NCBI RefSeq assembly: GCF_001541925.1
Contig: NZ_LQMW01000006.1
Span: 1-40,871, forward strand
Length of the DNA: 40,871 nucleotides
Reading direction: 5' to 3'
DNA from: Nitrosopumilus sp. Nsub
GTDB lineage: Archaea > Thermoproteota > Nitrososphaeria > Nitrososphaerales > Nitrosopumilaceae
Made by a program: the position numbers and the translations under genes. Shown here piece by piece: positions 2,804-38,408 of the stretch. Under the pieces are notes generated by a model. The model made no database searches, was not told the origin of the DNA, and saw only the letters and a list, made by a program, of their open reading frames with translations. Within the stretch, counting starts at the first letter, position 1. Every line of letters starts with the position of its first letter.

Positions 2804-3904
2804 TCAAGAAGTCAGTTTTTTAACTAATTCAACAAAATCATCATTTGACAGAGGAGGGACATTCATAATTTCCAAATTCTCTGAAACATGTTGTGAAGAT
2901 TTTTGACCAACTAATGGTGCCAGTACTCCAGGGGAAGAGCGAATGAATTGTAGTGCACGTAGTGAGGATTTCAAATCACCAAATTCAGGCATTACGCCAG
3001 GAGCTAACAATCTACCTTGCATAAATGGAACACTTGTAAAAACACCAACTCCCAAAGTGACAGCAGATTCTAAAATTGAAACAGTTTTGTTTTGAATTTT
3101 TTGGTTTTTTCCCAACAGAGCTTGGTCATAATTCATGTTGTAAGGCAATTGAATGAATTTGAATCCATGGTTTTCTCCACCAACATTTTTTGCCATTTGA
3201 ACAACATCCTCTAAAGAAAGGTGTTGAGGGTTGTCGTCTTTTACTCTAAAACATTCCCATGTAGCCATTCCATAAAATTTGATTTTTCCTTCATCACGTT
3301 TTTGCTCGTACAATTCAAAAACAGATTTTAGTTTTTCTAAAAATTGTTCTTTGCTAATATCATTAATTTGTCCCTCAATACCATTATGCAGATACATCAA
3401 ATCAATACATTCAAGATCTAAATTTTTTAGACTTCTATCTAATTGATCAGATAAATAAGCGGTAGTCATACAATGGTATCCAGAAGTAATGTCTCCTTCT
3501 TTGACAATACCGGGCTTGCCCAATTCTCTCATCACATATTGCATAAAATCTTCTTGAATGTCTGCATCATTTGTCACATACCCGTTTTTACTGCTTACAA
3601 AAATTTGATTTCGATTAATTTTTTGTTCTTGAATTAATTCAGAAATTGCCTTACCAACAGAGCGTTCAGCCTTTTGGGCACGATAATTTATGGCAGTGTC
3701 AATGACATTTACCCCAGATAAAACAGACTGTTTTACAGCATTTTTTACCAGTTCGTCAGTTTGACTGTCAGGATTGCCAAGATAGGTTCCAATTCCAACA
3801 TTTGAGAGATGCAAGTCTTGAAAAATATTAAAATTGCCAGGATCAACTGAGGATTTTTTTGAAAAATCTTTAGTCCCTTCAGGCGTTGCAAACCCAGAAA
3901 TCAT
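2804..3904 (-). CDS. Aldo/keto reductase family protein
   Basis: A 366-residue AKR-fold oxidoreductase, probably cytosolic and NAD(P)H-dependent. Seen: the GIGTYLGNP start of the barrel, DTAINYRAQKAERSVGKAI with the catalytic Asp and Tyr, FVSSKNGY with the catalytic Lys, and DLMYLHN with the His-containing strand. The C-terminal segment (PGVLAPLVGQKSSQHVSENL) matches the cofactor-binding end of the barrel. Residues ~125-150 hold an insert absent from short AKRs. The substrate cannot be told from the sequence. The ubiA-like gene lies upstream on the same strand, 33 bases away. Confidence 0.88.
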   Translation of the reverse strand: MISGFATPEGTKDFSKKSSVDPGNFNIFQDLHLSNVGIGTYLGNPDSQTDELVKNAVKQSVLSGVNVIDTAINYRAQKAERSVGKAISELIQEQKINRNQIFVSSKNGYVTNDADIQEDFMQYVMRELGKPGIVKEGDITSGYHCMTTAYLSDQLDRSLKNLDLECIDLMYLHNGIEGQINDISKEQFLEKLKSVFELYEQKRDEGKIKFYGMATWECFRVKDDNPQHLSLEDVVQMAKNVGGENHGFKFIQLPYNMNYDQALLGKNQKIQNKTVSILESAVTLGVGVFTSVPFMQGRLLAPGVMPEFGDLKSSLRALQFIRSSPGVLAPLVGQKSSQHVSENLEIMNVPPLSNDDFVELVKKLTS

Positions 3905-5115: not shown

Positions 5116-5517
5116 TTAGACCAAAGATTCATCATTGACTTCAATTGGCTTTCGGCCCATAAATCCAGATTCTTTGTCATGCCAAAATTTTATTTCAGTT
5201 TCACCATGTTTCCAACACAGGCAAACTTCATCATCAAATCTTTTTGAAGGAAAATCAAGCAGTCCTTGATCAATACTTTTAATCATTACTCCAGTACTTT
5301 CTAAAATTTCAACTGATTGATAAAATTTAGTTATTGCAGTGTTGAGTTTTTGTTTTAATTCCATATATTTTTCAAAAGAATTGGTAGTAGAAACAGTCAG
5401 CTGTAGTTCTTTCTCAATTTTTTTAATATCATTTTTTTTGGCAAGAGAGTATTCAAATTTTTTAATGACATCAGGCAATGCGTCATTAGCTTCTTTTGCA
5501 GTAAAAAATGAAAACAT
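5116..5517 (-). CDS. DUF2203 family protein
   Basis: From FSFFTAKEANDALPDVIKKF to the end (133 residues) this matches the DUF2203 family of small bacterial and archaeal proteins. It has a helical hairpin followed by GVMIKSIDQGLLDFPSKR and a Trp/His-rich end (CLCWKHGETEIKFWHD, then GFMGRKPI). No function is established. The frame is open upstream to 5628, but those extra 37 codons would overlap the divergent gene at 5589 and its TATA element. The family match begins at the Met at 5517, so I take that as the start. Confidence 0.8.
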   Translation of the reverse strand: MFSFFTAKEANDALPDVIKKFEYSLAKKNDIKKIEKELQLTVSTTNSFEKYMELKQKLNTAITKFYQSVEILESTGVMIKSIDQGLLDFPSKRFDDEVCLCWKHGETEIKFWHDKESGFMGRKPIEVNDESLV

Positions 5518-32864: not shown

Positions 32865-35216
32865 ATGAAAATGGCAGTTTCTGCGTTCCCAATAATTGTA
32901 TTATTGTTAATATTCTCTCCCATTTCAAACTCTTTTGCTCAAACTGATGTTGCAGATGATGATGGTTTTTTGTTTGAAGATGCAATCGGCGATGAATTAA
33001 GTACCAGAATGGTTCCTGAAAAACTAGTAAAAGGTTCTGAGGCACTATTACATATTTACCCTACTGAGAAAGGCCCAACACCAAAACAGGTTAATAATTT
33101 ACGGGCAGTATCTTCAGACACGGAAATAATATCTATTGGAGATATTGAAGATGGCGGCATAATTACAACGGTAAAAATTTTGGCTCACGATACAGGTGAG
33201 GCAAAAATTGCGCTAGTAGCTGATGGATTTGAACCTACTTCTTTTACGGTTATAGTATACGAAGTAAAAAACAGACCCACTCAAATTCTTCTCAATGCCG
33301 CACCTGATACTTTTGAAATGCACGGTCCAGGAACTGGATACTATACAGTACAGTTAACAGATGATTTTGGAGAACCAGTAATTGCAGATAAAGATATAAA
33401 AATTAATCTTTCTACATCTACGGATGTAATTTCTCTTGATACAAAACAGATGTACATTGATGAAGGAGAATATTATGGGATTGGAACTTTTAATGTTAAT
33501 ACTTCTGGCGATGTAATGATCTTTGCTGCATCAGATGGAATGGATACTAGAAACAAAAGAATCACCATATCTGGCCCTGTAGAAAAATCTTTAGAACTTT
33601 TTTTGTTTCCCGAAGTGATCTCCTCCCAAGCTAATCAACATTCGTATGCCGTAGTTGTAATGAAAGATGAAACTGGAAAACCAACCACTGCCGAAAAAGA
33701 CACCATCATAACATTACATGCAGTTTTAGATTCAGAAAAAACACAAACAGGAGATTCTCAATACTCTACAGAGGAGGGAATTGACAGGTACGGTAATAAA
33801 AAGAAATGGACAGGTTCTCTTGAACGTGTTGATGAATCTCAACTGAGAAACGAGGCAAGTCGTGCATGGGATAATTATTCAGGAGATAAAACAAAATTAG
33901 ATGTTTTGATCAATAAAGGCGATTCATACGGTTATTCCTTATTGTCATCTCCTGTAGGTATTGAAGGCACATATACCATTTATGCATCATCTCCAGATTT
34001 TTCGGGGATTCAGTCAAAACAGTTAACTGCAACTCATAATTTTTACATCGATGATTCCCCTGTACAAATCAAAACAATACCTAGCATATCTGCTGGAAAA
34101 AATGTATTGATTGGATCTGTGTATTTACAAGATGGCAATATTCCAGTTACATCAGATAAATCATTAAATGTACGAATTAATCCCTCAGATACGGATTCTG
34201 TAACAATAACTCCTCCAAAAATCATCAAGGGGTCATCAGTTGGATTGATGTTTGGAGATATGGGCTATACAATCAAAGAGCCTTCTACCTTGTCTGATAA
34301 CTCATGTATCAGTACTGTTACTAATGGTGGAGAAGGGTCAACAACTTCAAACTGTGTTGCAACTGATTTGTATGTAGTTGGAGGATTTGGTTCAGATTCT
34401 GCAAAACTTGATGTGTTTGGACCGACAAAAGCAGATCTAAAATTTGTGGCAAAACCAATGATTTCCAAAGTCATACCAGATACAGATTTCCCAGTTGTTG
34501 CATACATGACACGTGATGAATCATCTGTATGGTATTTCCCTGAAAACATCTACATCTCAAAGTCTCCTAGTTCAGTTATCGATATTTTAGGTGGACAGAT
34601 AAAATCTGGAGACTCTCCAAAATTATTCATGGCAAATGCAAAAGATTCAGGTGCAGATGTAATTACAATGACTGCAGGAGAATATGAAACCGACATGAAT
34701 ATTGAGGTAATTACTGCAAAAAAACCTGCAAAACTTACTTTATCTTCTCCTGATGACGTGTATACTTTTACTGAAAGTTTATTTTTGATTCAACTATTAG
34801 ATGAATCAGATAATCCAGTATTTTCAGATAGGAATTTGTTGATCAATTTATTTGTAGATGACACTAGTAAAATTAGAATTCCTGAAAGTGTTGTAATTGA
34901 AAAAGGAACTGATCATGCCACATTTACTGCAAATGCTGCAAGTGCAGGATCTGTCAAATTATTGATGCTGGCAGAAAATTTGCCGGAATTTTCAAACAAT
35001 ATTGAAATTGTTTCAAAACCCATTGTCGAAAATCCCCTAGTAGATAACACAAACAGTACCAAAAACGATACCGAAACCATACCTGAAAAGAAACGAAGTT
35101 TAGAGTTTATGGGTGTTGATTTGTTATTAGTTATTGTACCTGGAATTTTAGCAGGAGTTGGTATCATGTTAAAGCGTAATGGGACTTTTGATAGTTCTGG
35201 AGAAAGACTAGAATAA
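32865..35216 (+). CDS. Large membrane-anchored surface protein with Ig-like repeats
   Basis: A 783-residue protein with a Sec signal (MKMAVSAFPIIVLLLIFSPI, cleavage after SFA at ~25). Several beta-rich Ig/invasin-like units follow; two contain similar FEMHGPGTGYYTVQL / VYTFTESLFLIQL strands followed by LTDDFGEPV / LLDESDNPVFSD. A single C-terminal helix (LLLVIVPGILAGVGIML) is followed by Lys-Arg. It is presumably displayed on the cell surface as an adhesin or S-layer-associated protein. The frame is open from 32784, but TTATATC at 32836-32842 is centred 26 bases before ATG 32865. Confidence 0.75.
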   Translation: MKMAVSAFPIIVLLLIFSPISNSFAQTDVADDDGFLFEDAIGDELSTRMVPEKLVKGSEALLHIYPTEKGPTPKQVNNLRAVSSDTEIISIGDIEDGGIITTVKILAHDTGEAKIALVADGFEPTSFTVIVYEVKNRPTQILLNAAPDTFEMHGPGTGYYTVQLTDDFGEPVIADKDIKINLSTSTDVISLDTKQMYIDEGEYYGIGTFNVNTSGDVMIFAASDGMDTRNKRITISGPVEKSLELFLFPEVISSQANQHSYAVVVMKDETGKPTTAEKDTIITLHAVLDSEKTQTGDSQYSTEEGIDRYGNKKKWTGSLERVDESQLRNEASRAWDNYSGDKTKLDVLINKGDSYGYSLLSSPVGIEGTYTIYASSPDFSGIQSKQLTATHNFYIDDSPVQIKTIPSISAGKNVLIGSVYLQDGNIPVTSDKSLNVRINPSDTDSVTITPPKIIKGSSVGLMFGDMGYTIKEPSTLSDNSCISTVTNGGEGSTTSNCVATDLYVVGGFGSDSAKLDVFGPTKADLKFVAKPMISKVIPDTDFPVVAYMTRDESSVWYFPENIYISKSPSSVIDILGGQIKSGDSPKLFMANAKDSGADVITMTAGEYETDMNIEVITAKKPAKLTLSSPDDVYTFTESLFLIQLLDESDNPVFSDRNLLINLFVDDTSKIRIPESVVIEKGTDHATFTANAASAGSVKLLMLAENLPEFSNNIEIVSKPIVENPLVDNTNSTKNDTETIPEKKRSLEFMGVDLLLVIVPGILAGVGIMLKRNGTFDSSGERLE

Positions 35217-35268
35217 ATTTACATCAGATCATTATCTATTTTTTCAATTTGAATTTTTTACAATTAAA

Positions 35269-35742
35269 CTACTTCCAACTCATTCCTGAATATGGAAGTT
35301 TTTGAGCAATTGTTTTTAAAATTTTATCAGTACCTTTCAATACATTTTCCAAGTTCAACATATGGATTGTTGTTCTATTTGTTTTTATGATACTGTTAAA
35401 GAGTTTGTCACTTTCAAACATGTTTGTTTTGAATTGAACGGATTTTGAACAATCAACCATTCTACAAATTGAGCTTACCTCAATTCCAACCTTGGTTCCA
35501 AATTTTTTAACAGTAATAATTGGATGTAAATAATCATATCTTGTTTTTGGATAACCCATATTTCTTGTAATATTAATAACGGGAATTACTGCCCCTTTCT
35601 CGTTTACCATAACTTTGATTTCAGAACCACTCTCAACTATAGGCTGCATATACTTTATGTCTAATATGTTCTTTAATGGAATTCCATATGTTAGTGAATC
35701 ATTTATTTCAATTTTAAATGGGGCAACAATTTCTAACTCCAT
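35269..35742 (-). CDS. CheW-like adaptor protein
   Basis: A 157-residue protein whose core reads like CheW: YGIPLKNILDIKYMQPI, then AVIPVINITRNMGYP, IITVKKFGTKVGIEVSSICR and the last strand TTIHMLNLENVLKG. CheW couples chemoreceptors to CheA. The similarity is in pattern more than identity, so this is a divergent member. The soluble MCP-like gene lies ~1 kb away on the opposite strand; no CheA, CheY or archaellum gene is in the window. Confidence 0.6.
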   Translation of the reverse strand: MELEIVAPFKIEINDSLTYGIPLKNILDIKYMQPIVESGSEIKVMVNEKGAVIPVINITRNMGYPKTRYDYLHPIITVKKFGTKVGIEVSSICRMVDCSKSVQFKTNMFESDKLFNSIIKTNRTTIHMLNLENVLKGTDKILKTIAQKLPYSGMSWK

Positions 35743-36042
35743 GTTATTTTCATACGTATAATTTGATGTTAATTTAACGTGTGATCATTTTAAACAAGCA
35801 TATAATAAATTGATTTTTTTAAGTATTTTTATTGATTTTATTTTAAAATGCCATAGTTTTTTTGAAATTTTATTATTGAATTGGTAAAATTTTTTCAAAA
35901 AAAATCATTTAATTCTGAGTTTAAACAATTGATCACATATCTAATAAAATATTTTTTTGTAAAAAACCAAAACTCAAATTTTTCTTGGAAGCTATTTTTG
36001 AAAACAATTTATTTTTAAATTTGCAATATTGTTTTTCAATTA

Positions 36043-36132
36043 CTAATGTACTTTATGACACTTACATAAACATCCATTTGCACATTTCATTTTGAAACAA
36101 TCATCATACAAATTTCTATGTGTTTTAATCAT
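36043..36132 (-). CDS. 29-residue Cys/His-rich microprotein (candidate)
   Basis: The ORF begins MIKTHRNLYDDCFKMKC and ends with GCLCKCHKVH: five Cys in 14 residues plus three His. This is far from what random AT-rich sequence gives and suggests a metal-binding microprotein. A weak TATA-like TTAATTAC lies ~22 bases before the ATG. The function is unknown. Confidence 0.5.
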   Translation of the reverse strand: MIKTHRNLYDDCFKMKCANGCLCKCHKVH

Positions 36133-36223
36133 AACATTGTAAAACATTTGTAATTAACAGAAGAACTGTATGTTTAACTCATACAAACAACTTTTAATGT
36201 ATCATATGTTGGTAAAATAAATC

Positions 36224-36325
36224 GAAAGTCGACACAATATCCCATTGTCAAAATAACTCCCCGTCGTGTTACTGGCATAAGCCTACCTGCTATGCTACGT
36301 AAAGGATGTGAAACAGTTGACTTTC
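36224..36325 (+). ncRNA. Candidate structured RNA, ~102 bases
   Basis: The ends GAAAGTCGAC and GTTGACTTTC form a 10-bp closing stem (one G-U). Inside, ACAAT/ATTGT makes a 5-bp hairpin (36234-36248). TTACTGGCATA pairs with TATGCTA-GTAA (36269-36302; one bulged C, one G-U) in an 11-bp stem with an 11-base loop. This gives a three-way junction. The segment is clearly GC-richer than its surroundings. TTTTAA at about 36193-36198 is centred ~27 bases before the first paired base, as a promoter would be. No known class recognised. Confidence 0.5.
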
Positions 36326-36762
36326 AAATATTTTCAAAAAAATTGTTCATTGTCAAATATCATTTTTATACATGCAGCATAGCAAGAAAACCATTATTCT
36401 GTGTTATAGAATAAAAGTATGAGAAGCAGTTCATGATAGACACATGTCCTAGAAAAATCATGTTTACCTTGTGTCTCGTTTATTTTAAACATTTAGTTTT
36501 TTATCAAAATCTTTTTTTTAAAATTATTATACATTAGTCTCATCAATAATACAATATACAGTTAACCTATTACTAATTCTACTATTGAATCAAACCTTCT
36601 ATCATAATCATGATATCAATTCTGTTATACTCCATCACATAATCTAATGATTGGTATGTGTGTGTATTTTAAACAAACATAAATGTAATAAGTAATTGCA
36701 AATATGTAAGATACGAAATTTATTTCAAGGAAAACCACTCAATTAAAAGTTGGGCGGTTTGG

Positions 36763-37842
36763 ATGAGTCAAAAACAAACAGTAAAAACAAACAGTGATGT
36801 TGAAAAAGATTCAACATTTACGTTAAACAAGATGGCAGATATTGGAAGTGATTTAGAAAAAAATGTCCAATCTGCAATTAAAGAAATTGATTTGTTTAAT
36901 TCTCAAGCAAAATTAATCTCAATTAATGCACGAATTGAAGCAAGTAGAGTAGGTGAAGCAGGTAGAGCATTTTCAATTGTTGCAGAACAGATGAATGATT
37001 TAACAAATAAAATTGGAGAGGTAAATGAAAAGATGAAGGCTCAAAGTCAAACATCAATTAAAGGCATTCATGAATTAATAAAAAAACAAGCAGTAGATAT
37101 GAGGGGAAATAGACTAGTAGACTTGTCAGTTACAAATATGGATTTAATCGACAGAAATCTCTATGAACGATCATGTGATGTTAGATGGTGGGCAACAGAA
37201 AATGCACTGATTACCGCATTAGAATCAAAATCAAAAAAAGATAGCATTTATGCATCTCAAAGACTGTATCAAATTTTAGAGTCATATACTGTCTATGTGG
37301 ATTTGGTTTTAGCAGATACAGAAGGTAAAATAATTACAAACGGTAAATCACATACGTATGATATTAGTAATTCAAACGTGTCCTCAACAGAATGGTTCAG
37401 GACTGCAATGAGTTCAAAACAAGGACAGTTTGGAATGCAGTCAGTTGGACGTTGTCCTCTGGTAAATAATCAAATCGTTTCAATTTTTTCATGTCCTGTA
37501 AGATCTAAAAAAGACGGTAAAGTGTTGGGAGTTTTAGGAATCATTTTCAACTGGGATCATTTTGCACACCAGATAATTGAAGAAACACCAATTGAGAAAT
37601 CAGAAAAACAAAACACTAGAATATGCATAACTGATGAATCAGGGGACATATTTGGAGATTCCCAAGGAGAATGTCTAATAAAAAAATTAGATGCGTCATT
37701 TTTAACAGGATTAAAAAATAATACATCAGGATTTACAATGATAAATAATGACAATCAAACAACATGTGTTGCAAAAGCCCATTCCAAAGGATATGAAACG
37801 TATAATTCAGGATGGAGTTGTTTTATAATACAAAAAGTCTGA
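36763..37842 (+). CDS. Soluble MCP-like protein with C-terminal Cache-type sensor
   Basis: A 359-residue protein without membrane helices. Residues ~51-87 match the methyl-accepting chemotaxis hairpin tip (SINARIEASRVGEAGRAFSI, then VAEQMNDLTNKIGEV). After a linker comes RNLYERSCDVRWWATENALI (131-150) and YTVYVDLVLADTEGK, a Cache/PAS-like sensor found at the C-terminus of some cytoplasmic receptors. The signalling part is much shorter than a normal MCP four-helix bundle and there is no HAMP. It probably signals from the cytosol, perhaps through the CheW-like protein nearby. Confidence 0.75.
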   Translation: MSQKQTVKTNSDVEKDSTFTLNKMADIGSDLEKNVQSAIKEIDLFNSQAKLISINARIEASRVGEAGRAFSIVAEQMNDLTNKIGEVNEKMKAQSQTSIKGIHELIKKQAVDMRGNRLVDLSVTNMDLIDRNLYERSCDVRWWATENALITALESKSKKDSIYASQRLYQILESYTVYVDLVLADTEGKIITNGKSHTYDISNSNVSSTEWFRTAMSSKQGQFGMQSVGRCPLVNNQIVSIFSCPVRSKKDGKVLGVLGIIFNWDHFAHQIIEETPIEKSEKQNTRICITDESGDIFGDSQGECLIKKLDASFLTGLKNNTSGFTMINNDNQTTCVAKAHSKGYETYNSGWSCFIIQKV

Positions 37843-38408
37843 ATGAATCAAATAAATATCAAATGTGAAATAAATTATTAAAAATATGTCAAATGGTATG
37901 ATTGATTAAAAAACATCATCATTGACATTGTATACCAGTAATTAAAAACATATCAAACAAAACGACAAGGTTATTTTTCATATTTACCTGTATTTGCAGT
38001 TTCTACAATGTCTTTTCGGATTGTATTTTCATTTGTTGTCAAACTAAAAAGACAAAGGTTGTTGTGACCAAGGTTATAGTTTTATGATGGGTGTGTGGAC
38101 TTGCCGGTATTTCATGTACGTACTTTTATGAACAAAAACACGGATGCAGGTATCATGTTGGAATTATTCTTCCTCACTTTATTTCTTCTTGACTTTTTAC
38201 AATACACAAACAAACTTTTGCGTACTAAAATCAACCAAGAATTAGCAATAACAATTACATCCAACAACCATATTCAATTGTGGTCTTTTGTATGTGATTT
38301 GCTTTATCATAAAGCCATAAACCAACTAAATCTATTTTAAGTAAATATTTATTTTTATTTTAAATTCAATGGATTAAATTATAATGACATTGATTTGAAA
38401 GTTTCTTT
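37843..38408. other. Gap after the MCP-like gene
   Basis: The 566 bases contain no convincing gene. A plus-strand ORF of 81 codons (38095-38340) has no recognisable features. On the minus strand a 22-codon ORF (…TNENTIRKDIVETANTGKYEK, ending near 37975) reads like a gene fragment but lacks a good start. A TATA-like TAAATTATAATG at about 38374-38385 serves the zinc-ribbon gene downstream. Confidence 0.4.

Follow-up and report, generated by a model that had tools for sequence, protein, structure and literature searches.

In the ocean, ammonia-oxidizing archaea rank with the most abundant microbes. To our knowledge, little has been learned about their regulatory RNAs.

Several described noncoding RNAs can be compared with the one reported here. 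Tan1 is a 229-nt ncRNA of Candidatus Thalassoarchaea (PMC5069720). It is likewise a structured ncRNA of marine planktonic archaea that has been assigned to no family and for which a structure was proposed on the basis of a multiple alignment; it differs in coming from another phylum, in being more than twice as long and in having no known sequence relation to the present RNA. Tan1 was also seen as a transcript (PMC5069720), whereas the Nitrosopumilaceae RNA is known here from sequence alone. Yfr103 of marine picocyanobacteria is another multicopy family of structured ncRNAs with paralogues within one genome, although it is bacterial, about 300 nt long and highly expressed (PMC5069720). The k-junctions are kink turns in three-way junctions (PMC10573300) and share the three-way helical junction; by inspection, the tandem G.A pairs by which kink turns are defined were not seen in the conserved UUAC/GUAAAG-G loop of the present RNA. 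The motifs of Weinberg et al. (2010) are also intergenic noncoding RNA families that were defined through covariation, and the main text of that paper names no Nitrosopumilus, Cenarchaeum, crenarchaeote or thaumarchaeote (PMC2864571).

The window analyzed is a stretch of 40,871 nucleotides from Nitrosopumilus sp. Nsub. It contains an element of 103 bases in AT-rich intergenic DNA, and a scan of the window found no ORFs of at least 60 aa across it. The original prediction placed a new structured RNA here, between two chemosensory genes. The flanks are confirmed, with a CheW-like domain on one side and Cache and MCP signaling domains on the other (Table 1). The new structured RNA is strongly supported by covariation, by an excess of G-U over A-C pairs, by the conserved position of the promoter and by the lack of a match in Rfam. 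The element is a real RNA because many base pairs are kept through paired mutations, and the existence of the RNA family is close to certain. Judged against Rfam and the open-access literature, in which no published description was found, the family is new, one more among the free-standing structured small RNAs of archaea.

Table 1. Features at and around the structured RNA (window positions).
Feature	Position	Strand	Basis or remark
CheW-like domain gene	35269-35742	-	flank of the element
Imperfect inverted repeat TGTATG-N7-CATACA	36167-36185		immediately 5' of the TATA box
TATA-like promoter box TTTTAATG, -32 to -25	36192-36199	+	same place as the boxes of other copies
Structured RNA, window copy, three-way junction	36224-36326	+	covariance-model match; fold z -4.1
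P1 closing stem, 5' strand GAAAGUCGAC	36224-36233	+	partner 36316-36325; 7 of 10 pairs with compensatory substitutions (sequence-only alignment)
P2 hairpin ACAAU-AUCCC-AUUGU, abutting P1	36234-36248	+	5 bp, 36234-36238/36244-36248; fold
J2/3 linker, length and sequence vary among copies	36249-36261	+	low information content in the alignment
P3 long hairpin	36262-36308	+	11 of 16 pairs with compensatory substitutions (sequence-only alignment)
P1 closing stem, 3' strand GUUGACUUUC	36316-36325	+	10 bp with 36224-36233; same basis as the 5' strand
T-run, possible archaeal terminator	36331-36334	+	just 3' of the RNA
Gene with Cache and MCP signaling domains	36763-37842	+	flank of the element

The window copy is the sole match to the covariance model in the window (96.3 bits, E 8.6e-19). 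Positions 36224-36325 fold at -27.2 kcal/mol, against -16.0 +/- 2.7 for dinucleotide shuffles, of which 0 of 200 were as low. The predicted three-way junction, with its 10-bp closing stem, 5-bp hairpin and long hairpin, is borne out by this fold. The long arm had been described as 11 bp with an 11-base loop. The arm is present, and its layout can be refined: 4 base pairs at its foot (36262-36265/36305-36308) are followed by an internal loop, small and asymmetric, in which UUAC/GUAAAG-G is conserved, and then by about 11 pairs. Within the 11-base loop, two conserved G-C pairs form a partial closure and leave a hexaloop, (H)UACNN (36283-36288). High information content marks the UAC of the hexaloop (1.7-1.9 bits), the closing G-C pairs, the region of the internal loop and parts of P1. 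The P2 UCC loop is intermediate in this respect, and the two linkers are low. P2 is sometimes missing when single sequences are folded alone. About 70 bases past the RNA, positions 36374-36385 hold a complement of at least 8 bases to the P3 apical stem (GCATAGCA, 36289-36302), which is just partly retained at the syntenic locus L044 of another species.

Covariation was checked on homologous loci. Paired changes in the closing stem and the apical stem were already present among the first six copies. RNAalifold was applied to 50 copies from several genera, aligned with MAFFT by sequence only; the alignment was not fitted to a structure, and its copies had themselves been collected with a structure-aware model. 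The program gives the same fold, with two-sided changes at 18 of 30 pairs. The covariation score of this alignment is 0.423, compared with 0.255 for shuffled alignments (0 of 500 reach the score) and 0.06-0.12 for slid pairings. A model-fitted alignment of 88 copies, which is biased toward its own structure, has two-sided changes at 30 of 33 pairs and a score of 0.492 against 0.233. The compensatory changes in the stems thus exceed both the shuffled and the slid controls. P2 is kept among copies, yet it shows one-sided variation (G-U) in the sequence-only alignment, and its covariation support is weak. The stems contain 339 G-U pairs and 21 A-C pairs, about 16 to 1, and an A-C would read as G-U on the other strand. 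Selection acts on the plus-strand transcript, since G-U pairs far outnumber A-C pairs in the stems. In subtype C, the model misaligns the 5' half; when folded alone, it gives the same type of junction (L089, z -5.6). For a pseudoknot of the P2 UCC loop with AAAGG, covariation did not exceed that of shuffles, and tertiary pairing between other segments received no convincing support. There is one weak signal, Watson-Crick pairs alone, between the P3 5' arm and the J2/3 linker, amid many tests.

The element also appears to have its own promoter. The original prediction had placed a TATA-like element at the distance that would set the start of transcription at the first base of the RNA, and TTTTAATG does sit where the other copies have TATA-like boxes. 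Such a box lies about 30 bases 5' of the fixed RNA start in 85% of 135 copies, compared with 6% of random positions, an enrichment that is descriptive because the list of patterns was chosen once the sequences had been inspected. The box is at -31 to -29 in 104 of the 135 copies. GATC occurs within 60 bases upstream in 78% of copies against a background of 17%, mostly at -38 to -36. The full GATC-TATA motif is rare: six genomes were found to have 0 to 3 matches each. T4 is found within about 20 nt past the 3' end in 67% of copies (22% background). The window copy and several copies linked to chemosensory or two-component genes do not have the GATC-TATA arrangement, and have an imperfect inverted repeat immediately 5' of the TATA region. 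The inverted repeat of the window copy is a possible operator, which is only a suggestion because dyads are common in such AT-rich DNA.

Imperfect inverted repeats with a core like TTTNAAAC are seen upstream of chemosensory-linked copies of the RNA, in the window (36167-36185) and at L053, L065 and L095. A similar stretch lies at 36661-36679, about 85 bases 5' of the MCP gene, and the two could possibly share an operator.

The original prediction left two roles open, a trans-acting RNA or the leader of the MCP-like gene, and the first is the better of the two. The reading preferred here, which we hold at about an even chance, is that the element would be a trans-acting ncRNA of about 100 nt, the RNA part of a ribonucleoprotein, which binds protein through P3 and does not act as a base-pairing antisense RNA. 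Sequence evidence shows the family, its structure and strand, where the promoter lies and that the RNA is independent of its neighbors; its transcription, protein binding and regulatory role we infer. Each copy would probably be transcribed from its own promoter, starting where the closing stem begins, give or take one or two bases. The transcript would end in the T-run and fold into the three-way junction, with P2 abutting P1 and P3 as the long arm. It would then act in trans and bind a protein through P3 as a component of a ribonucleoprotein. Similar bodies with different upstream sequences would allow the same RNA to be made under different conditions; for the window copy, the signal may be chemosensory-linked. 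A transcript may already be present, unannotated, in RNA-seq data.

Protein binding is favored over antisense pairing because the conserved unpaired parts (the UAC hexaloop, the UUAC/GUAAAG-G internal loop and the P2 UCC loop) are short and lie inside the structure, while the long linkers are free to vary. A protein-binding RNA accounts for this pattern better than would an antisense RNA that pairs through a long seed. None of the known protein-binding motifs could be recognized in the RNA. In a trans-acting antisense small RNA, a stable scaffold would offer the P2 loop, the P3 loop or the linkers for pairing with mRNAs. That reading is possible, if doubtful: the RNA is free-standing and multicopy with differing promoters, like sibling small-RNA families, and two of its loops are exposed, but the exposed conserved stretches have just 3-4 bases and the long single-stranded linkers are variable. 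The linkers could nevertheless carry antisense sequence specific to each subtype.

The neighbors of the RNA bear on whether it could be a cis-acting leader, similar to a riboswitch or an attenuator, of the gene downstream, which would be the MCP gene in the window and a DUF72 gene in many relatives. Among the nearest downstream ORFs, 73 of 128 are on the same strand, and copies of subtype B are often followed by a DUF72 gene after 28-52 nt. Against this, 55 of 128 (43%) are on the opposite strand, and across 136 copies these nearest ORFs sort into 57 groups. The T-runs come after the RNA. Positions 34901-36577 of the window are about 91% identical to locus L044, after which the similarity stops; the syntenic copy at L044 keeps the RNA, and a ParB-like gene lies downstream of it in place of the MCP gene. 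The role of MCP leader was therefore not borne out. A riboswitch or cis leader of this gene was rejected, as there is no conserved same-strand association with a downstream gene. The presence of the RNA and of DUF72 is correlated in the genus (both in 48 genomes, RNA alone in 16, DUF72 alone in 6, neither in 25; Fisher p 4e-7, uncorrected for phylogeny), and this extends past the loci where the two adjoin. DUF72 as an obligate partner of the RNA was rejected, since 16 genomes of the genus hold the RNA without it. In addition, the neighboring DUF72 gene carries stops in G082 and G084. A cis-acting leader is improbable and largely refuted. The chemosensory context is limited to a few copies, and the neighbors of most copies are unrelated. 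With its own promoter at a fixed distance and no fixed neighbor, the RNA has the marks of a free-standing archaeal small RNA gene, and as judged from these loci the element is such a gene and not the leader of the MCP gene.

The MCP gene itself lies in a block of about 1.35 kb (window 36577-37931) that faces an unrelated ParB-like stretch (L044 2843-4215) between conserved flanks, a variable site. The MCP protein has no relative in viral contigs.

A DNA search found three further copies in the same genome (C12, C10 and C23) and one copy each in two related genomes. The genome has four strong copies, the window copy included, and one weak one. The weak match (C8:5170-5260, 37.6 bits) lacks a recognizable promoter, and may be a decayed copy or chance. 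Of the 95 genomes of the genus, a first covariance model, built from six copies, matches 62, and a second, built from 88 copies, matches 64. Across the family, the second model finds the RNA in 98 of 250 genomes, spread over 6 of the 22 genera. A sample of the class (400 genomes, 82 genera) places all six matching genera within the family, with 0 of 76 other genera matching. As far as sampled, the RNA family appears to be confined to Nitrosopumilaceae. An exact-pattern scan of named genomes gave 15 contigs, titled Nitrosopumilus, Nitrosarchaeum, Nitrosomarinus or unnamed Nitrosopumilaceae/Nitrosopumilales. The same kind of scan found no match to the conserved pattern in viral contigs, and a virus origin of the RNA was rejected on this basis. 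There are 0 to 5 copies per genome. The RNA is absent, with laxer filters included, from several complete or near-complete genomes of the genus (G024, G042), and it is non-essential in the group because several complete genomes have none. A defined RNA family is now available, with a covariance model, a promoter rule and many genomes that carry it.

The window copy also provides an example of a paralogue with a near-identical body beneath a different promoter. Its body and that of the C12 paralogue share 96% identity, and the flanks of the two are about 58% identical, which is background. Compared with the syntenic copy at L044, the flanks are 90-92% identical and the RNA 80%. The simplest reading of these identities is that a C12-like paralogue would have overwritten the window body by gene conversion while the promoter stayed as it was; alternatively, the L044 copy may have changed faster. 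Tentatively, the family could be a ribonucleoprotein RNA specific to ammonia-oxidizing archaea whose bodies are kept interchangeable by gene conversion among dispersed loci, beneath promoters particular to each locus, so that one effector would answer several signals, chemosensory ones included. If true, this would add a new class to the regulatory RNAs of archaea, one with a protein partner.

The near-identical bodies of the window and C12 copies, the dispersal of copies among unrelated flanks and the 10-bp complementary ends might also suggest a MITE-like repeat at the DNA level, with terminal inverted repeats that mimic the closing stem. Such a repeat is very improbable, as the excess of G-U over A-C pairs is explained by selection on an RNA and not by a DNA repeat. 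The compensatory changes extend to internal stems, the promoter lies outside the repeat at a fixed distance, and copies of a subtype share gene neighborhoods across species. A MITE as the sole explanation is refuted by the strand asymmetry, while the copies could possibly have spread by duplication or mobility.

Rfam 15 (4227 families) has no match at the gathering threshold to the element or to eight relatives, and its one match in the window is a tRNA elsewhere. This agrees with the original prediction, which recognized no tRNA at the element; no tRNA or Rfam match overlaps it. A relaxed threshold gave merely chance-level matches, such as plant microRNAs. No features of kink turns, C/D or H/ACA RNAs (tandem G.A pairs with a 3-nt bulge, C/D boxes, a 3' ANA box) were noticed on reading the alignments. 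A divergent member of a known family (5S rRNA, SRP RNA, RNase P RNA, or an H/ACA or C/D guide) below the Rfam thresholds is highly unlikely: 5S rRNA is likewise a three-way junction of similar size, but the lack of Rfam matches stands against it, and the variable copy number and the absence from complete genomes disfavor an essential housekeeping RNA.

In some genomes, the divergent subtypes B and C are found close together, in opposite orientation, around the DUF72 gene. Such pairs are found at L066 (2501-2603 on the minus strand and 2979-3078 on the plus strand), L060 (3001-3103, plus; 2506-2614, minus) and L154 (2501-2603, minus; 5272-5373, plus). At loci L136-L145 of genus g21, the RNA lies about 0.9 kb from an SRP54 gene on the opposite strand, which is probably coincidental synteny.
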